From assembly GCA_026874595.1 (NCBI GenBank), contig CM049316.1:62975176-63039175 (forward strand): 64,000 nt of DNA, written 5' to 3'. The DNA comes from Sipunculus nudus. Lineage: Eukaryota; Annelida; Sipuncula; Golfingiida; Sipunculidae. Below, piece after piece: positions 6,509 through 63,002 of the stretch (positions are counted from its first letter, which is position 1; the number at the start of each line of letters is the position of its first letter). The notes under the pieces were generated by a model. That model did not search any database. It was not told the origin of the DNA and worked only from the letters and a program-made list of their open reading frames with translations. The translations under genes and the position numbers were made by a program.

Positions 6509-6574
6509 AGAAGACTTTTATAATAAAAACACATGGCTCTAAGAGCCATGTGTTTTTTATTATAAAAGTCTTCT
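6509..6574. repeat. 66-bp near-perfect hairpin
   Basis: The left arm 6509-6540 and right arm 6542-6574 are reverse complements over 32 positions. There is one extra T in the right arm and a central loop of about one base (CTCT-A-AGAG). The right arm runs into the 3' end of a SINE-like repeat, and the left arm may be an inverted copy of the SINE tail. Confidence 0.9.
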
Positions 6575-29224: not shown

Positions 29225-30027
29225 CTGTAATAAAATGAAAGGTATTAGTCAGGAGCAATATTACAGCTTGGAATTTATAAATCTTTACCGGTATACATAA
29301 ATGACATGCAGCCTACACGGGTGAAAAATATATGGTTATGACAAATGGAGGATTTAGATACGTATCTGGAGAGGTGCTATCCTGCAGGAAAATATCTTAT
29401 ATTAACAGTGAATGGAATAATAAAGTAACACTCATACATGTTGAAATTGTATTATTATATGATATACTATATATAAATCCTTTACTTAATCATAGAACTT
29501 TGTTGGACTGAAACCATGTTATTTCTATAATATCGCATATTTTTTTGGGAGGGACCAACCAGTCAACCACAGAAAGTTTCTGTGATATTTCCTCATTTTA
29601 AGGTTATTAATAAAATAAAATAAACAATCTTTGCAGTATAAAGCAGGTACAAATATTAGCAAATCCAAGTTATTACTGAAACCTTACTCTGAGCTATCAT
29701 TTGGACATGAGCCCTTTATAATAACCTGCACAAATATGTGTGCAGACCAGAAGCGGATCCAGGGGAGGGGTCCAGGGGGTCCGGACCCCCCTTTTTCAGC
29801 TACTGCAACCCTTTTCAAAGGTTTCAGACCAATTTTTGTAGCCTGGACCCCTTTTCCGGACCTGGGGACCCTTTTTTCAGGTTTTTCACAAGTCCACCTG
29901 AGTTGGACCCCTCCTTTTCCTAAATTCTGGATCCGCCCCTGCAGATTGTTCTAGTCAACAGTCAGTCTTATTCAACAAATTTACTTTACAAACTGATATT
30001 TAGTTCATTTATATTTATCAACCTCAC
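29225..30027 (-). other. intron 2 of MTSS1-like gene
   Basis: This 803-bp intron begins with gtgagg at 30027 and ends with ttattacag at 29225. It interrupts an Arg codon (phase 2). It carries a 194-bp hAT-like element at 29748-29941; the rest is AT-rich and featureless. Confidence 0.9.
29748..29941. mobile_element. hAT-like non-autonomous element, copy 1 (in intron 2)
   Basis: This 194-bp element has terminal inverted repeats CAGAAGCGGATCCAG and, in reverse complement, CAGGGGCGGATCCAG. It is flanked by CAGAC (29743-29747) and CAGAT (29942-29946), a 5-bp target duplication with one change. The interior is a series of GGACCC/GGGTCC motifs. Its relative at 62306-62511 has the same structure. 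CAG-ending termini with 5-bp duplications are known in some hAT groups, so the superfamily call is an inference. Confidence 0.75.
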
Positions 30028-35100: not shown

Positions 35101-37892
35101 TAAAGACAACTGTGTATTAAAAAGAAAACAATCAGCTCAGACACTGAACAGGAAAGGGTGGTCCATGTGATAGATCTTCCTTAGTGACCTGATACATCAC
35201 ACGAACACTACATTATCAAAATTCAGCATCAAAAACAGCCAGGGAATGCCGTATAATGCAGACTAAACTATTCATGCAGGAAAGTAGAATACCCCCGTTA
35301 TTTGCCACGCAAATGATGATCAGCACATCTGTTAAAATCATGTCCTGGGGATGGAAGTAAACAGATCCAGTGTGAAAGCATTTCCCATTTGTCAGGGAAG
35401 ATGACAAAAAGCATGGGAGGTGTAAACAACAGCATGTTCATGGGAGACACGGATGCTACAAAACATGCACATTTATCATGGGCCTCTGTGAATTATCAGT
35501 GAGAGCATCATGTATAAGCCACTTTCACCCCTTTTACAAACAAAACTGTTTACAAACATATTTATCAGAGTGGATTGGTCAAATCTGTTTCAAACCATAT
35601 AGTGCATTCACACAGGCATCTAGCCCCAATGCACAAGGTGTACATTTCACATATGGAACAAAGTAACAACATGCTACACATGCGGATAATTCAATTTCCA
35701 TGGAAACAGTTTGAAACCAACTCATGAGCTGGATTCAAACCATTTTAGGTAGAAACGGTTTGAAAACCATTGGGATACCCCTGAAAAAAGTGAAAGTACA
35801 TATATCTCTATGGATAATTGTACTAAAAAAATAAATTTGAATATATTATTAATAGTCTTCACATTTTTAAACAGCTACTACCAGTATTAATTAGAGGATT
35901 CTTTTCATATATTTGTCCAATTAGATTCTCTTTCAAGTTTCAGTAAGCCAGTATGTCACAAAGTTACATGTGACCACATGAGCACCTAATACCGAAGAAC
36001 ACAATTTGCAAAGTCATCTGGTTCATTCAGAGACACCCAATTATGCGCATCATACAAGTCTTCTCATGTCCCTATAGGTGACCTCATCACCGGCAACCCT
36101 GCTCCAGACCAGTGCTTGCTAACTAGTTGTAATGTAAAGGCCTGCCCTGTAAATTCAAGCTATCCTGATCTCTTGGGTCAATCAGATATTGGCTAAAACC
36201 TGTCACTGTTCAATAAAATTCTACATCTTCTAGAGAAATGGTAATATTTTTAGTTTCAGTGTGCTTTACAAGATTAATATTCTGATGTACATGTTCAAAA
36301 CATCTTTTAAGGAACATGGGAGATAAAATATGCAACCAAAGTTGCCAATGTGTGCCAAAACTGAGTGCAGAAAAAGTACTGGCGACTGATAAATTTTTTT
36401 GTCTGTCATCTCATGGCATGCAATGTACAGTTTGCTAGTTTTATCTCCAAAACATGTTAAACAGAACTTGTAAAGCACTCAAAATCTGACAGATTGTAGA
36501 TGAATTTTTCCCAAGGATAAAATTGTCAACACCCTTGACTCTATAAACAATCACATAATCAGTTAAGGGTGTCACATCGAAATATCTGGTCCCACTGCGT
36601 TCTGGCGACAATGTTTCACCAAATACTGGAAAAATCACAAGGGCTGTACCAGCACACTGGAGCACATGTTGATTTAACATGTGGCATAAACCATGACTGT
36701 TGATTTCAGTGAAAGTGTCCACCCACTGCTGGGAATAACATGTGATGTGTCTTGATACTGTATTAATATAGTAAAACGCTGAATGTCAAAAATGTATCAT
36801 TTTAAATGCCTTCATAATAAAGATAATTCATTTTACTGTCATAAATATACTACAGGTATATATATACAACCTTCTATCATGAAAGTAATTTGGACATATA
36901 TATATATTTATTTAACTATTTTACTATTAAATCAGCCAAATTCCTAATTCAGAGTTCCATTTATTCATTTGAACTCAATGAATGTGATTACAAACAGTAT
37001 CTATCAGCTAACAGTCCACTAAGGCATCCAGACACCATACTAACAAATAGATCACTTTATCATGTCATAAATCAATTATATCTTGATGGAGTACTATTTT
37101 GCCACTGACTATAAAATTTACTGATATGAGCTCAGCCAAATGGTTAAGTGGTCTTTTTATACTTTTCACTGTAACATTATAACAACAAACTAATAATAAA
37201 AGAGTAAATGTCCCCACATTTTAGTGAAGAACAACCCACAGATTCACTAACTGATCAATATGAACATGAAACTTGGTATTTTGTCATTTTCATACTGCTC
37301 TAATATGGTTAACTAAGCCAAAAAAAAAGTGTTATTTAGCCGATAAAACAAAATTAACATGTACCCAAGACAAAAGGGTTAACATGTTCATTTCTCAGAA
37401 GTGACTCCATGCAGATATTGCAGGGCTTTTAGTAACATGGGAGTAAGCGTCTGTGACGCTAAAAATCTAACTCGGTCGCATGGTTCTGAGGGTCCAAGCG
37501 CCCAACCAGACCCACAAAAATTCTGGCTGTTGGACTGACAGAATCAAAGGTTTTCCTTTGTAGACATAAAAGACAACACAAATATCAACACTTCAAAATT
37601 TGACACAGATCCCATTGGGACGAGCCATATTAATTGAAATGTGACACACTAAACTATGGCCTGAGCTTCCCGGCCTCTTCACTTCTTCTTCCTATTGAAA
37701 GCTTTGTATTGCTGTGCTATCAGTATCACTGAGCTATATAAAATATGAGCTCTTACAGGAAAAGGTAGATGCGGCTTACAACCACTAACTGTCTCTCACA
37801 TGTTTCAGACAAAATTAACTAATTTATGAATCTCATATTTGAATACAACAAATTTGGATGGTGTGTTTTTTAAAGTTACTTATTATGACATG

Positions 37893-38463
37893 TATATGTC
37901 AAAGACGAGATTGAAATCCAAGCAAATTTTAAATTTGCCTAGACGAGATTGTGATTGTGTTCTTGCCTAGGCAAGATTGTAATTGTGATCTGGTTTAGAT
38001 GGATTTTAAACTCGCCTAGACAAGATCACAATTGCAATCTTGCCTAGGTGAGATTAAAATCCATCATGGAGCAGGTTAGGAATTTTATCTCGCCTGGATT
38101 TCAAACTCGTCTATGTCAACTAAAATGCATAATATATTAGGAAATCAGACCAGATCACTATTTTAATCTAACCTAGGCAGATTTTAAACTCGCCTAAGTG
38201 ATATCAGGCGGATTTTAAACTCGCCTGGATGATACCAGACAGATTTTAAACTCACCTAGGCGAGATTAAAATCCTGGCCTGCTCCATGATGGAATTTAAT
38301 CTTGCCTAGGCGAGACTGCGATTGTTATCTTGTCTAGGCGAGTTTAAAATTCTTCTAGGCGTGATCACAAATGCAATCTCGCCTAAGCAAGATCACAATT
38401 GCACGATTTCTTGTCTAACCAAATTTAAATCTGCCTGGATTTCAATCTTGTCTCTTACATATA
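37893..38463. mobile_element. foldback element of CCTAGGCGAG family, short copy
   Basis: It starts TATATGTCAAAGACGAGATT and ends in the reverse complement of TATATGTAAGAGACAAGATT. It consists of a truncated left arm (about 37893-38110) and a full right arm (about 38120-38463) with essentially no spacer. Both arms are built from repeated short palindromes of the type CTCGCCTAGGCGAG, separated by ATTTTAAA or ATTGCGATTGTGAT spacers. Many copies have decayed by transitions. The internal block GCATAATATATTAGG to CACTATTTTAATC matches the right arm of the long copy at 42454-44599. Confidence 0.85.
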
Positions 38464-39299
38464 AATATAAAACTGCTGATACATAACTGGGTGAAATTCC
38501 AGGCACTGTTCTGTCATTCAGTGACAACAAAATATAAGCTCTGGGTGGCTACATTTTACTACAGGAAAAAGTAAAACCTTTGATGTGATGATATTTTTCC
38601 TGAAGTGCTCAAAAACAAGTGACCAATGGGTCATGACATTCCGTTATCTAGCATGACATTAAAGACTATCAATCACAACAGGAATTTTATCATCGGAAAA
38701 AACAAACTGAGATTAACTTCAGATATATCATCTTGACCTTTGAGAGTATGGAAGAAAAACTGGTGTGTCAAATTTGTAGAAAAAAATATATATATATATG
38801 CAGTGCTTCAAAAGTTATAATGGTCATAATAATCCTAGATATCTGCAGACCAAACTAGAAGATCAAGGTCAAAGTCACCATTTTTCAAGCACATATGAGA
38901 ACTTTGTTAAAACAACTTGTGTATTACATTTTAGGGGGAAAATCTGTAGTACTTACTTAAAAAGTTATGGTGTTCAAAAGAAATCCTATTTATTTCTGTA
39001 GGTTAGACCTTATAATTCAAGGTCAAGGTTATCAGTTTTTAAAGTAACAGATCTGCAATTGATACTGTGTGGAAAAATCTGTAATTAAATTTGAAGAAAA
39101 AATATTCACTACTTCACACTTTTGAAGAGTTCAAAAGCAGGTTCTTGCTTTATAGTTCACAAAAGATAGGTCATTGAGACCTATGGGTTTCCAATGAGAT
39201 TTTTAAAGCCCTCCCCCCCCCCCTTGTATGTGAAGTGTGAAGTTAGAAGATTCTAGGTTTTATGGTTAACATTTGTGCCCTGCTAACTGATGGTCAGAC

Positions 39300-39430
39300 A
39301 GTTGCAAGGTTGGCAAGTTTTATGGCAGGAAGGTTTTAACCATAGGTTATAACCTGGTTAAAACTGCCCCGTCTAAAACAGGTTTTAGGCAGATTTTAGG
39401 CACCAAAGGTGACTAAACCCTATTTTTTTT
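39300..39430. repeat. TTTTAGGCAG-rich repeat, block 1
   Basis: The block contains GGTTTTAACC-like palindromes, GGTTATAACC and ACAGGTTTTAGGCAGATTTT. It is related to block 2 at 42205-42320. An AAGGTTGGCAAGTTTTA at its left resembles, in the opposite sense, the CCAACCCTGG end of block 2. The two may be termini of one older element now split by the 40459-41888 insertion. Confidence 0.4.
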
Positions 39431-40458
39431 AAATTTATGACTTATAGATCCACAATACTACAAAAATGGTTGGGGAGATGCAGTAACAAGGCTTAGTTGG
39501 GCTTCTGGAAGGTTTCAGATATTCATAATGCAGGATTTCCTGTTGACTGGGATCATGCAGTCTTCAAAGAGCCAGTATAGGTTTCTGAGCATGAGACTAT
39601 GTTTGTTTTGCATATGGTTTCATAGGCCAAGTCAATGTCTTAATCAGGACCCTTTGGTTTTCTTGATGAGTGTCTTGCTACCTGGGATGATGTAATAGAG
39701 CCTGAGTAAGGCTGGGTATCAGATTACTGATTACTATTAGGGTGATGGGGTCATAAGACCCAATGGTCATAAATCCTACAGTCCTGCTGTTTCCAAGTAG
39801 ATGTTCACATGAGCTTTCATACATCACTAGGATGATGCAATCACAGCCTGAAAACTTTTCTTGAGTCAAACGTTTTACTGACTGAGTGTAGAAGACAGGG
39901 CTGATGACTATGAAATGTAGGTTTCTCAGACTTTTAGATAGTACACAGCCAAAAGTAATTGTGAATAATCTGGGATTTGCAACATATTCACTGCAATATA
40001 TTTTTTAATTTTTCAGTTTGTACTAATTCAAGTGTTTCACAAGGGTTCCATTTTCACAATCTCACCATGCAGTTACCTTCACAGAGCATATCCATCATTA
40101 TATGGACAATAGATATGTGCACACAATCTTAAAATTTCTTAAAGGGATGATGGAGGGGAATAAACAACTAGTGAAAATTCTTATTTGTCATAAGATTTAT
40201 TAACAGATATCATATTTTCAATTTTTGGCTAACATAAATGTTATAACTTATAAAATCAATCTTTAGCTTTATGCCATTTGAAGCTACAGGCATACAGAAA
40301 ATACAGAACATACATGATATGTTAGCATGATGATTATTCATCAGTGTAGCTGGAATAACTTTTTAATTTAGGAAAAACTTCTTTTGTGTATATCACAAAA
40401 TTTAATCCTTCATGATCATAAAGCTAACTAGAATACGGGTAGTCGACAAGCACTACGT

Positions 40459-41888
40459 GTATCCGCCAAAATCAGAGAAGGACGGGTGAAGTAAGGCATT
40501 GATTGAGTGGCAAGGGGATATAGAGTTACATGTGTTAAATATTAGAATGGATCTCTGCCACATAAACATGATTGTAGGTGGCGCCACCTGTTATTTGAAT
40601 GAGAAACTATCCAAGATATATACACATGCAAAATTTCATGTGGAAAAGTCAAACCACTGCAGAGATATGAGTAATTTTATCCTACAGCAGACAAACAGAT
40701 TGAAGCTGTGCATAAAAGGCTGCAGGTGGCGCCACCATTTTTGTTCATGTTATAAAGCTATCCAAGGGCTACATTTGTGTAAAATTTTTTTCCTGATTGG
40801 TCAAACGGTTCCCGAGATATGAGCTTGGATGTTTGCAGCATAAACGTGAATGTAGGTGGCGCCACCTGTCATAAAATCAAGAAAGCTATCTAGGATGTAT
40901 ACACATGCCGAATTTTAGGTGAATTAGTCAAACCACTGCAGAGATATGAGTGATTTTAACCCCAGGCAGATTAACAAATGGACACTGTGCAAACATGGTT
41001 GCAGGTGGCGCCACCTTTTGTTGTGTATGTTATAAAGCTATCCCAGGGCTACATTTGTGTAAAAAATTTTTCCAGATCGGTCAAACGGTTCCTGAGATAT
41101 ATGGATTTATGTGTGGAGTGTTAACGTGAATGTAGGTGGCGCCACCTGTCATTAAATCAAGAAAGCTATCTAGGATGTATATGCATGCTGATTTTTAGGT
41201 GAATTAGTCAAACCACTGCAGAGATATGAGTGATTTTAACCCCGGGCGAACAAATGGACACTGTGCAAACATGGTTGCAGGTGGCGCCACCTTTTGTTGT
41301 GTATGTAATAAAGCTATCCCAGGGCTACATTTGTGTAAAATTTTTTTCCGGATCAGTCAAACGGTTCCCGAGATATATGGGATTATGTGTGGAGCGTTAA
41401 CGTGAATGTAGGTGGCGCCACCTGTCACAAAATCGAGGAAGCTATCTAGGATGTATATGCATGCCGAATTTAAGGTGAATTAGTCAAATCACTGCAGAGA
41501 TATGAGTGATTTTAACCCCAGGCAGATGAACAGATGGACACTGTGCAAACATGGTTGCAGGTGGTGCCACCTTTTGTTGTGTATGTTATAAAGCTTTCCC
41601 AGGGCTACATTTGTGTAAAAAATTTTTTCCGGATCGGTCAAACGGTTCCTGAGATATATGGGGTTTATGTGTGGAAACAGACTCACAAACGGACGCTGGG
41701 CAGAGACGAAAGGTCAGAGGTCAAGGTCACTTGGTTAGGCACTAGTTCACATGTGACCTGATAATTTGTGTAAGTTTCGGAAAAATCTGTCCAGTAGTCT
41801 CAGAGGAGTTCTCCGGAAACGAACGCGGCAGCGGCGGCGGAACCCGGTCAAAAACATAGTATCCGCAAAACTTCGTTTTGGCGGATAC
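40459..41888. mobile_element. 1.4-kb element filled with alternating 138-bp satellite-like repeats
   Basis: Termini are GTATCCGCCAAAA and its inverted copy. The right end folds into a 30-nt hairpin (41859-41888) with loop TTC. The interior has eight monomers in four dimers of about 277 bp. Each monomer is centred on the 12-bp palindrome GGTGGCGCCACC, near 40579, 40726, 40855, 41004, 41134, 41279, 41410 and 41562 (the last mutated). The A and B monomers are recognisably homologous (AAGCTATC, then TCAAAC, then GAGATAT). The right subterminal part has a GGCAGCGGCGGCGG run. No ORF of note is present. A fragment of the same family lies at 43033-43098. Confidence 0.85.
41711..41729 (+). promoter_or_regulatory. 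triple AGGTCA nuclear-receptor-type half-sites
   Basis: AGGTCA, one base, AGGTCA, then AGGTCA directly adjacent, gives a perfect DR1 followed by a DR0. DR1 is a classical site for RXR, HNF4 and COUP-TF type receptors. It sits inside the repeat element. Similar AAGGTCAAGG strings occur near 5827, 6996, 38865 and 39019. Sequence is certain; function is inference. Confidence 0.35.
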
Positions 41889-42204
41889 AATTACAGTATC
41901 TGGTTATAAGCTTACACTAAGTCACAGTATGGTCATTGTTTTATTGACAATAATTGCATGCAGAGGTGGGAGACCTTTGAACATGATTTGAGGATACAAG
42001 CTAAAACTGATATAGAGAACTGTGTTAATATGGACAACCTGAACTAGTGTTGTTTTCATTTGTTACTTTTATAATGGTTAAATCTGTTATATTTGAATAA
42101 AGTGTTCCTCAAGTGCTGTATTATTTTAGCATATTTCTTTAATGCATTTACCTGTGTAACAATGAAATAATTTTATGCTAGTCGTATGTGAGGAAATCTA
42201 ACTT

Positions 42205-42320
42205 CAAAGGTTTTAGGCAGTTAAAGGCAGTTTTAGGCAGGTTATAACCTATTTTAGGCAGTTAAAGGCAGGTTTTAGGCTCTGCCCTGCCGAAAACAGG
42301 TTTTAGGTGGCCTAAACCCC
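42205..42320. repeat. TTTTAGGCAG-rich repeat, block 2
   Basis: Short direct repeats (GTTTTAGGCAG, AGTTAAAGGCAG) surround a GGTTATAACC palindrome. The block ends in CCAACCCTGG, which in reverse (CCAGGGTTGG) is like a transposon terminus. It is related to block 1 at 39300-39430. Confidence 0.45.
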
Positions 42321-43032
42321 AACCCTGGACAGTTGGATGGAAGGATGACTGACAAAGGCCCATTAGCCCATTAATATAGCTAAGCATGAGAGTCAGTCGA
42401 GCTAAAAAAAATACTAACAGTTTGTGACTTAATGTCTGGAAGGGTACATAATATATATGTCAGAGACGAGATTGAAATCCAGGCGGATTTTAAATTCGCC
42501 TAGACGAGATTGCGATTGTGATCTCGCCTAGGCGATATTGCGTTTGTGATCTCGGCTAGACGGATTTTAAACTCGCCTAGACGAGATCACAATCGCAATC
42601 TCGCCTAGGCGAGATTAAAATCCATCATGGAGCAGGCCAGGATTTTAATCTCGCCTAGGCGAGATTAAAATCTGTCTAGTGTCATCCAGGCGAGTTTAAA
42701 ATCTGCCTGATATCACTTAGGCGAGTTTAAAATCTGCCTAGGCGAGATTATAATAGTGATCTGATCTAATTTCCTAATAAATTATGCATTGTAATTGACG
42801 TATGAAAGATGTTTTCAGTCAGATTTTCAATATCTAACACTGAATGGTTATATGTATAGTTCACAGGTAATATATTTATTAATATGTACAGAATATTATA
42901 TTATTAATGTAATAATTAACATTAATTTTTTTATTTTATATTTTTATTTATAAACTAGGTAATAAGAAACTTACATTGGTATTGTATATGGCATATTTAA
43001 ATGATATATGATGTTTGCTGCTGCTGATTATT

Positions 43033-43098
43033 GTATCCCCAGACAAAGTTGGGGGATACTATGTTTTCATACCGGTCCCGCCGCCGCTGCCACCGCAT
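43033..43098 (-). mobile_element. terminal fragment of the GTATCCGCC element family
   Basis: A terminal hairpin (GTATCCCC at 43033-43040 pairing with GGGGATAC at 43052-43059) is followed by TATGTTTT, an ACCGG motif and CCGCCGCCGCTGCC. This is the inverted order of the right end of the 40459-41888 element. Only the end is present. Confidence 0.7.
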
Positions 43099-43751
43099 AT
43101 AAATCTTGTTTACATAATAATTTTGTTGTCAATATTAATTTGAAGGGAAACTGGTAATAGTAATATTAGTAATGTAGTATTTTAAAAAGACAAAAGGAGA
43201 CATAGCTCATTTATTATTTATCAATATAATTCAATGCATGTTCACATGCATAAATGATCTATTGATCTATGAATCTAGAAATCATATCTTTTCTGATATG
43301 ATATAATACTGTCCAAAAAAAGGCAGTTATCTTGTAACACAGTCTACATAAATACTGAAGCTTCACAAAATCCCTCACAAAACATTAAAAAAAAAGATCA
43401 GAAGAATATTATATACATTAGAAGTAAAGACTAAATAAGACAAAGAAATATTCACATGCATACATCTGTGTATCAACTTTTACCTATTCTCATATGATGT
43501 TTAATTACCTGAAAAAAAAGGACTGTGTATCAAAGTCCATCATAAATACTGATACCCTGCATATTTTGTACTATAAGTGTACATGTTTTGACTGTTGAGT
43601 GTTGAATATCTGGGTGAAAAGAAACATTTGAACCAGATCAACCAACTAATTTGTTCTGTCTGTCCTGTAAGAATTATCAAATATGATGATTGTTTATGTT
43701 AATGTGTAATATACTCTTTAAACAGTGAAGTAATATCTATCTAGACTAATT

Positions 43752-43778
43752 TATCTATCTGTCTATCTATCTATCTAT
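43752..43778. repeat. TATC microsatellite
   Basis: About six TATC units with one G interruption. Confidence 0.9.
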
Positions 43779-46256
43779 GATTGATTCAATATGCAAGTGG
43801 ATGACTTTTTTCCCTCAGATTTGTTCTTCATAATATCTCAAAAGTGTGCCTCAATATACCTCTTGTTACTCGCTTGTCATATTTTAAATACAATTACAAA
43901 TTATTTTTTTGCAAAAAAATAACAAGTGATATTTACAATCCCAAGGTTGTTAAGAAAACTGGGAAAAAATAAAGATTAATTAATGTTTAGCATATAATTG
44001 GTATGGTATGGATGCTGTAGACAACATGAAACACATCAAAGGCGCAAGTAATAATCAAATAACTATTTCATAATTCTATTTCCAAAATTAATGTTAATTA
44101 TTACATGAATAATTATTAAATTACTGTAAAAAAGTTAATTATTACACTAATACTATAATATTCTGTAAATATTAATAAATATATTACCAGTGAACTATAT
44201 ATAACCATTCAGTGTTAAAATATTGAAAATCTGACTGAAAACATCTTTCATATGTCAATTACCATGCATAATATATTAGAAATTTAGGTTAGATCACTAT
44301 TTTAATCTGGCCTAGGCAGATTTTAAACTCGCCTAAGTGATATCAGGCAGATTTTAAACTCACCTGGATGTTACCAGACAGATTTTAATCTCGCCTAGGC
44401 CAGATTAAAATCCTGGCCTGCTCCATGATGGATTTTAATCCCGCCTAGGCCAGATTGCGCTTGTGATCTCGCCTAGGCGAGTTTAAAATCCGTCTAGGCG
44501 AGATCACAATTGCAATCTCGCCTAGGCGAGATCACAATCGCAATCTCGTCTAGGCGAATTTAAAATCCGCCTGGATTTCAATGTCGTCTCTGACATATAT
44601 ATCAACTAGCTGAGGCATAAATGATTTAACTGAAAATAAAACAAACTGTTCAACTACTTTCAGACAGGAATTCCTTGTTAATAAACATATTTATGACTGC
44701 ACTTTTTTGCTGAAATATGGTTAGAAATCTAGTTAATCTTCAGCAGCAGTATTAATTAAAATATTATGTACACTTTAAAATTTGTTCAGGACTACTACAT
44801 GAATCAATAAGCTTGACTTCCACAGTAATAATTCAACAGAAGAGTCAAGGTTCTTTCCCGAAAAAAGTTCCAATTTTATGGGTTTTATGGTTTTTCCCCA
44901 GACAGTCTCTCTGACCATAAGTCTATGAAAAGCTACCGTGGTAACCAAGCCTGACAGCCAAATCACTAGCTGCCAGCAAGATGGTAGCCAACAGTGGCGT
45001 TAAGCGCAATTTAACAGACCAGAAAGCATCTTGCTGATGATCTTGGCTAAAAATTACACTGAACCATTTTTTCCTCAAGTTCAGTTGTTTGCAAGGATAA
45101 TTATTTTCTTAAGATTTCTCTTATTGAGATTTATTATAATTAAATCATTTAGTATTTATGCTGATTCAGATTAGAAAGTTTGCAGAAAATGTTTCTAACT
45201 GTAAATTATAAACCATATACATAAAATTCTTAAATAATTCAGGGCCTATCTGAAGATATATCTGGAACATACATTAAAAACATTCCATATTATGGGCAAA
45301 CAATAATCATTTTAACTAGAAACATTGCAACTAGTCCATCTATCCCTTGTAACTTGAAGAGAATGAATTGTGATCATCAAGATTTGCACTAAGCATTAAA
45401 GTTTACATTTTTATACTGTAAAAATGTGCATTTATACTTGTGTCCATACTGAAATGATAAACATTGGTATTATCTGATCATAAGACCTCTATAGTATACA
45501 AAACACTGGCATTTCTACCAAAAGATTTATTGCAGTATTTAGTTCAGCATAGCTATACTACAGCCAACCACAACTGGATGATTTACTGGATGGGGCACTC
45601 AAAAATGAGAACACGCCACAGGGTCACACAAGGAGCCAATTTTCCGGGAACACCCTGTAATCTAGACATATTTGTAGGTTTTTAGGAAATAACCCCTTTT
45701 TTTCATGACCAAAGTCAACGTCAGTATTCTACTATTGTCTAACCAACTATTTCTGTGTGTGGGCCTGGCAACTATGGCACTTCCTCTTAATGAACATGTT
45801 TCAATAGTCGGATATATATGAACATTATATGCAGGCTCGATCTGCAGTTCTGCACATGTGACTGCTATGTTTGCTATATTTAGCATGGGTGGTGCAGCCC
45901 AAACTATGACACAGCTGATAAGGCAGTTAAATGATTGTATTTACACAACATATAGAGATAAGACTTAATCATGAGACAGTTACTTATAAACCGCTATACC
46001 TTATGTACTATTTAACCTTCTCACCTGCATGTTGCATAATAATCATAATTGACATATTATAAGAGTGGCCAGCTTACTGTACAGAACAAGAGTTCTGAGA
46101 CTTACCTAGTATAAGAATATAGCAGGTTAATTTTGGCCATGGTAAAGTATAGATAAATTAAACTGCACAATTTTAAAGAATGAAATTACTTTTATCTCTG
46201 TTCATGACAGTATATAATTTCTTTATTTGAATTGACATAAGTTGAGATTAAATTAT

Positions 46257-61199: not shown

Positions 61200-62305
61200 A
61201 AAAAAATCGAAATACTGACTTACTGGTCCAAAACACTGCAGGCGATTATGATGCGCATCGCGCAAGTCCGTGGAAAATGTCTATCTATAGCATCTGATCA
61301 CGAGAAACAGAATGGCGTCCTAAACTTCGTTTGTTCCATGAAACTATTCTTTGCATTTATATGAGATTATGTATAGATTAATAATTTTTAATTTAATTAT
61401 ATTAAACTAAGGGATTAGTGAAAGTCGTTCATACAAAAGATGCACATTTTTGTTTAAACAAATCAACAATCTATATAAAATTGACGGTGGTTGCAATGGA
61501 CTTTTGCCACGAAATTCCTCTGTGACCACGCCTGGGAAATGAACGTTTTTGGTTTTGAACTGTCGGGAATGTTGCAAGGTATGTCCAAAGGGTGTAATTT
61601 TATCTTAATTCTTCATAAATCAAGAGATATTTCAAATCAGTTTTCGGTGGGGCTATTGCAGCGCCATCTGTCAGCAACTACGAAAGGCTAAAAGCAGTTG
61701 TTACTGGCTACGCCACCGTTTTCCGACCAGAAGGCTCCGGCGCAAGCTGTGCAAGACAAAGAAGAAAGGTTCCAGATGAGGTTTTCCCAGTTTTGCTATG
61801 ATTACATTATACCATATTTATATAGCACTCCTTTCACTCAAATACTGTTCAAGAGTACTTTAAAATGTGCATTTCTTATATAGTAGACAAATTTTATATA
61901 GGTGATTGTTAAAAAACCAATTACACAGTGGCTAAATTTTATGCAGTATAAACCGATTAAACATTAATTAAATATAACGCAAATTTCAAAGTCTATATAG
62001 GTGATGTCTTTCCATTTTCTGAGACTCGGTTGAGTCAGACATATCAAAATGTTCAGTTATTCCAACTAGCACAATTTGATTCTGTTTAAAAATGATGTAA
62101 TAGGTAGGCTCTGAAATAATATTTGTCTTATATATTACTTATCAATTTAAAAATTATCCTTTGGCATGTTATTACTATGGCCTGTGGAATAAAATGTTCA
62201 AATGTGACTGATGTATTGTTTTGTCTTATTATAATAAAGGTTTATTATAATAATCCCATAGGTTGTCACGGAAAACAGTTGACAACCCTGTTGACAACCC
62301 TAGAG

Positions 62306-62511
62306 CAGAAGCGGATCCGGGGGGGGGGGGGGTCCAGGGGGTCCAGGACCCCCACTTTTTCATCAGAAACAACGTTTTATTAAGGGCTTCAGACAAAATT
62401 TTGCCGCCTGGACCCCCCCCCCTTTTTCAGACCTGAGGACCTTTTTTTAGGGTTTTCATTTGTCCTCCTGGGTTGGACTCCCCCTTCTCCTAAATCCTGG
62501 ATCCGCCCCTG
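62306..62511. mobile_element. hAT-like non-autonomous element, copy 2
   Basis: This 206-bp element has termini CAGAAGCGGATCC and, in reverse complement, CAGGGGCGGATCCAG. It has a perfect 5-bp target duplication TAGAG (62301-62305 and 62512-62516). A G14 run and a C11 run have expanded within it relative to copy 1 at 29748-29941. The insertion site is the centre of a TTGACAACCC palindrome. Confidence 0.85.
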
Positions 62512-63002
62512 TAGAGGGTTGTCAATTTGAAATTTTGACGACCTGGGTTATTGTTTTAGGCACATCCATTTGACAACCCCAAAGTTGTCTATTTGACTAC
62601 CCTATACCTTTAACATTATAATGTTAAAATAGTTTAGCCAGTCTACTTTTTATTCTGGCGTATTTTTGGAGAAATTAAACTGGTCTTCAAGTGCAAAATA
62701 ATAAATGGATTGGAAAAGCTAGTTTATATGCAATAAAGTATAGTTACTGAGGAACTGGGCCTTTCACATAGGAAGATTGAGGAAGCTCTCATAAATGTGT
62801 TCCTGGAAAATCGATTTGTGTAACCACGTTATTATGGCCGATTTTATCGTTCATAAAGTTAAGAATTAATGATAAATTTAATGTTAAAGGTGATAAAATC
62901 CTCCATTTTGAGGACTCGGCCCATATCTAGAGCCGGGTCTGTAATGAGTGTGATCGTAAGGTTGTAATGACATACGTTGCAATATTTTCTAAAATTCATT
63001 TC

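Follow-up and report, generated by a model that had tools for sequence, protein, structure and literature searches.

Foldback arms have been described in Mutator- and P-type DNA transposons. Tetris, Tm1 and MuTAnT are foldback elements of the Mutator type (PMC4079207, PMC3169594, PMC4486113), and Galileo carries long, Foldback-like terminal inverted repeats (TIRs), where the THAP domain of its transposase binds one site identified by footprinting and another two lying in the repeats (PMC3688188). Ginger2 elements are characterized by TGTNR ends, 4-bp duplications, an RTATAY target and TIRs of 45-297 bp in the published table, and one of their families, from Nematostella, is short and non-autonomous (PMC2836005). 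We analyzed a stretch of 64,000 nucleotides of the Sipunculus nudus genome (assembly GCA_026874595.1, contig CM049316.1, positions 62,975,176 to 63,039,175 of the forward strand), hereafter the window, whose own numbering is used throughout. This window is AT-rich and eukaryotic-looking (36% GC), no identifiable gene was found in it, and a single inverted-repeat family has inserted there twice, the copies being about 4 kb apart and both within 7 kb. The family is very likely a non-autonomous DNA transposon, i.e., an ordinary kind of genome parasite, gene-less, in unusually regular form. With somewhat better than even confidence, both copies could further be considered as one cut-and-paste family whose foldback-type TIRs serve as binding arrays and whose driver is a Ginger2 transposase. 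The two copies and their parts are as follows.

42458..44595, no strand: long copy, TGTCA...TGACA, 2138 bp (inverted-repeat and BLAST alignments, ends scan)
42458..42923, + strand: left arm (TIR) of the long copy, with palindromes arrayed over the outer 300 bp and an AT-rich inner part
42924..44130, no strand: AT-rich centre of the long copy, with open reading frames (ORFs) of at least 40 aa lacking a transposase domain
44131..44595, - strand: right arm (TIR) of the long copy
37897..38459, no strand: compact copy, TGTCA...TTACA, 563 bp (BLAST alignments, ends scan)

The arms of the long copy were first delimited by an inverted-repeat search pairing 42451-42833 with 44220-44602 (383 nt, 94% complementary), a match that BLAST lengthened to 474 columns at 93.2% (42451-42923 with 44602-44131), so that each arm measures about 470 bp; the centre between them has a GC content of 28% (over 42925-44130). 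The compact copy pairs with itself over 37890-38466 (73.8% over 602 columns). Aligned by BLAST with the long copy, its left arm matched along 206 nt at 86-87% and its right arm along about 355 nt at 85-88%. Sequence likeness between the copies ends at the element boundaries and the flanks are unrelated, apart from one weak run-on to 38489/44623. A terminal 27-mer, allowing up to 3 mismatches, was found at all four element ends and is absent from the rest of the window (0 expected). The foldback family proposed in the initial annotation is thus supported, as two copies with the same termini in unrelated flanks. Its arms number four, the annotation having counted three, and the interval 37893-44599 is not one element, since a tandem-repeat element of a different kind (about 40436-41900) and other DNA separate the copies.

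The ends were then compared with the signature of Ginger2. TGTNR termini are present at all four ends (TGTCA three times, TGTAA once), and a boundary drawn as TATA/TGTNR yields a matching 4-bp repeat in both copies.

42454..42457, no strand: TATA next to the left end of the long copy, a putative target duplication of 4 bp
44596..44599, no strand: TATA next to the right end of the long copy
37893..37896, no strand: TATA next to the left end of the compact copy
38460..38463, no strand: TATA next to the right end of the compact copy

The target reconstructed for the long copy, A-TATA-T, fits RTATAY in full. A scan for duplications (offsets -4 to +8, lengths 2 to 11, both copies) returned lengths 2 and 4 at offsets 0 and -1, and length 2 at +1, +2 and +5, as those fitting both copies. 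Beyond 4 bp, no duplication was found for the compact copy at any scanned offset, and the long copy permits one of 8 bp (ATATATAT) only because of the TA run in which it lies. Of 20000 boundaries drawn at random outside the elements, 19 had TATA/TGTNR no more than 5 bp away.

The outer 300 bp of the arm form an array of 14-bp palindromes with start-to-start spacings of, e.g., 28, 49, 28 and 50. Allowing up to 3 mismatches, CTCGCCTAGGCGAG matched 23 times in the 64 kb (0.20 expected; 0 of 100 shuffles reached 23), four of these matches being exact, and all 23 are confined to the arms (37934-38391, 42495-42746 and 44328-44558). The spacers between palindromes flip orientation part-way along the arm, and because of this the 109-bp stretch around them is itself an imperfect palindrome. 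The inner arm has a GC content of 22% and lacks the motif.

42514..42622, no strand: 109-bp imperfect palindrome in the left arm (54 + 1 + 54, 85% complementary)
44431..44539, no strand: 109-bp imperfect palindrome in the right arm, counterpart of the left-arm one
42641..42672, no strand: perfect 32-bp palindrome GATTTTAATCTCGCCTAGGCGAGATTAAAATC in the left arm

Folding at two scales, as anticipated by the initial annotation, is borne out as a computed property by these nested palindromes and by the predicted folds of the long-copy left arm as DNA (z = -14.4) and of the compact copy as RNA (z = -26.3), none of 100 shuffles being as strong in either case.

According to the mechanism that we propose, a transposase encoded elsewhere and acting in trans would cut at the termini TGTCA...TGACA, and insertion would duplicate TATA. 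The outer 300 bp of the arm, with its CTCGCCTAGGCGAG palindromes and short mirrored spacers, would offer clustered putative sites where a dimeric transposase, or the DNA-binding domain of one, could bind, and the protein bound at the arm arrays would pull both element ends together. Such a role of the palindromes, as multiple sites per end for a dimeric transposase, is the most likely one in our analysis, with Galileo as a partial precedent. The driver may belong to the Ginger2 superfamily, whose transposase is DDE and Gypsy-integrase-like, as the terminal signature hints. This assignment has about an even chance of being right and makes Ginger2 the leading candidate, followed by Tc1/mariner. 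Inserted copies would then decay neutrally, chiefly by C>T/G>A changes, and the compact copy would be a derivative that has decayed further and whose centre has been rearranged. Mobility itself and mobilization in trans are likewise what we infer.

Proteins and relatives were also searched for. The ORF scan covered 100 of the 632 ORFs of at least 40 aa in the window. Among the 51 located around the copies, no transposase domain was detected with Pfam, the matches being only weak and unrelated (C1_2, E 0.01; zf-HIT, 0.053; Fz, 0.081), and the 49 longer ORFs taken from elsewhere in the window gave no Pfam match at E 0.01. A Ginger2 transposase (Gypsy-integrase-like, H2C2 + DDE) was not found among the 100 scanned ORFs, as expected for a non-autonomous copy, nor was a Tc1/mariner one (DDE/D, IS630-type). 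A distant-mode search with the arm gave no match in phages. The degenerate palindrome pattern in bacterial and archaeal contigs and a 20-mer in viral contigs gave 0 matches each, which says little because these collections hold no animal genomes. Rfam (at gathering score) and a tRNA search returned 0 hits each, and the letters of the palindrome occurred 0 times in paper texts.

The decay of the two copies was examined through their base changes. Within the 23 palindromes, 30 of the 39 changes are C>T or G>A. Over the arm alignment, leaving out 157 undecided columns, such changes away from the consensus affect 11 of 100 CpG cells, against 16 of 406 cells at other G/C positions, which gives an odds ratio of 3.0 (p = 0.010), while within the palindromes CpG is hardly favored (by plain count, 14 of 92 CpG cells vs 16 of 138 other G/C cells). 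The initial annotation had ascribed palindrome decay to methylated CpG: the direction of change agrees with this, and specificity for CpG is only modest, and weak inside the palindromes. The CpG observed/expected ratio, 0.42 for the window as a whole, reaches 0.73 in the compact copy and 1.36 in the left outer arm of the long one. Over the outer 206 columns, 10 positions differ between the two long-copy arms and 35 between the two compact-copy arms, and 23-29 differ when an arm of one copy is compared with an arm of the other. Because of its lower CpG ratio and greater arm divergence, the compact copy looks older than the long one, unless it is a composite. Indeed, its centre is a rearranged junction containing a third terminus-like piece, which joins arm-interior sequence at TATGTCA.

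38092..38122, no strand: 31-mer resembling a terminus (26/31 identical), at the junction within the compact copy

Outside 37800-44700, the best score for this terminus 31-mer is 20/31. The junction hints at template switching, or else at a copy composed of two insertions.

Several observations weigh against the Ginger2-driven transposon proposed above. First, since the arms of the compact copy resemble the long-copy arms more than each other and a third terminus-like piece is present, this copy may be a composite of two insertions and not one element. Second, the boundary is ambiguous: a 4-bp duplication at ATAT/GTCA suits both copies equally, and so do duplications of 2 bp at five offsets, because TATA is self-complementary and set in TA-rich DNA. 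Besides, the compact-copy target G-TATA-A fits RTATAY at only 5 of 6 positions, and TATATGTCA is not rare, with 5 occurrences in the window (1.65 expected), two of which lie outside the elements. Third, the Ginger2 signature was matched after the fact: the TGTNR ends and 4-bp duplication were associated with Ginger first, RTATAY was then taken from PMC2836005, and the formal duplication scan came last. The control with random boundaries is therefore optimistic, as the superfamily was picked after the ends had been seen. Fourth, the arms exceed every TIR in the Ginger2 table, and no transposase was seen in the scanned ORFs. Finally, the palindrome halves display no excess of compensatory double changes (1 of 161 pair cells vs 2.4 expected, a comparison of low power with two copies), and the binding-site role stays putative. 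Hence, because one target is one base off, the arms are over-long and no transposase domain was found in the scanned ORFs, Ginger2 is retained as the leading yet unproven driver.

A possible, though rather doubtful, alternative is a non-autonomous Tc1/mariner element, in which an IS630-type transposase would be the driver, TATA merely a TATA-rich target, and the duplication TA only. Some Tc1/mariner members prefer ATATATAT-like targets, and typical ends of this superfamily are CAGT-like. A TA duplication does fit both copies at several offsets, but CAGT-like ends are absent from them, and the flank shared at all four ends reaches TATA, which is fully accounted for by a duplication of 4 bp. In a survey of molluscs and bivalves, a host group that is not necessarily comparable, Tc1/mariner is the richest transposon superfamily and Ginger is rare (PMC10294476).

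An insertion of a Mutator-type foldback element into TA-rich DNA, as for MuTAnT, Tetris or Tm1, appears improbable. These elements do have long modular foldback TIRs, and MuTAnT targets (TA)n, but they give 8-10 bp duplications; the duplication scan, which found 8 bp in the long copy only within its TA run, led us to reject such a duplication. The 7-8 bp duplication of P-type Galileo does not fit the copies either. Local palindromic amplification or duplication without transposition is very improbable as well. The two copies do lie within 7 kb, and the rearranged centre of the compact copy with its third terminus-like piece could be read in this way, but the copies have the same ends, unrelated flanks and matching TATA. 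Because similarity stops at the element ends, bar the weak run-on, a single-locus origin by local duplication alone, which the initial annotation had named as refuting its own proposal, is disfavored. Lastly, the idea that the arms are a functional source of double-stranded or small RNA kept by selection for folding, to which the very strong predicted folds would lend themselves, deserves hardly any credence and was rejected, as any inverted repeat folds so and both tests were null, no sign of selection for RNA or palindrome pairing being found in the compensatory changes or in the arm mismatches read as + strand RNA, where G.U shows no clear excess over A.C (6 vs 7 in the long copy, 17 vs 11 in the compact copy; low power with two copies).

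Other repeats were observed in the window. The separate element between the copies (about 40436-41900, ends judged by eye) contains four 280-bp tandem units (40565-41675), eight AGGTGG[C/T]GCCACC sites (seven AGGTGGCGCCACC and one with T) and a terminal hairpin (TATCCGCAAAACTTCGTTTTGGCGGATA), and is similar in plan to the HINE/Helentron elements reported from oyster (PMC7492417). Inside the long copy, 43030-43091 is similar, in inverted orientation, to the hairpin end of that element (41827-41891; 78% over 65 columns). Two direct copies (88%) of a 26-mer bearing AACAGGTTTTAGG lie at 39364-39389 and 42282-42307, accompanied by a short TTTTAGGCAG-like tandem array at 42210-42280. Farther away, 29744-29945 and 62302-62515 form a direct repeat (78% over 215 columns), possibly a dispersed one, and 6509-6574 is a self-palindrome (95.5% over 67 columns).

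The family was compared with known systems. As in IS3EU, TA..TA ends could be drawn here, but the usual 6-bp duplication of IS3EU (PMC10045372) has no match with such ends, i.e., at offset +2, in either copy, and this duplication was rejected. Tetris, Tm1 and MuTAnT share with the present family modular foldback TIRs and mostly non-autonomous copies, MuTAnT also lying in TA microsatellites (PMC4079207, PMC3169594, PMC4486113), and differ from it by duplications of 8-10 bp, which the compact copy lacks. Galileo, of the P superfamily, is similar in its long, internally repetitive Foldback-like TIRs, which are made of direct repeats (PMC3688188) whereas nested palindromes are found here. With Ginger2/TDD, the copies have in common the TGTNR ends, a putative 4-bp duplication (TATA, although a 2-bp TA or an offset of -1 fits equally) and a TATA-centred, AT-rich target (PMC2836005); they are unlike it in their arms of about 470 bp, the nested palindrome array, the lack of a transposase in the scanned ORFs and one of two targets one base off RTATAY. 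The initial annotation saw here its strongest candidate for something undescribed, a view that the comparison does not uphold, as long internally repetitive TIRs are known in Foldback, Galileo, Tetris, Tm1 and MuTAnT and the ends fit the signature of a named superfamily. No foldback Ginger2 was noticed in the literature search, which covered the open part of the literature. We tentatively propose, as an unlikely extension, a foldback Ginger2 lineage whose ends would have expanded into palindromes of 14, 32 and 109 bp arranged hierarchically, read by a dimeric or multimeric integrase-like transposase as a multi-site end. Foldback arms would then have originated within the retroviral-integrase branch, independently of the Mutator and P branches. 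If the family is not driven by Ginger2, it is an ordinary non-autonomous transposon family. If it is, the long TIRs of internal repeats that define the foldback-type structural class, and that are present here, would have evolved in a third enzyme lineage, and their very regular palindromes would make the idea of long TIRs as binding arrays easy to test in vitro.

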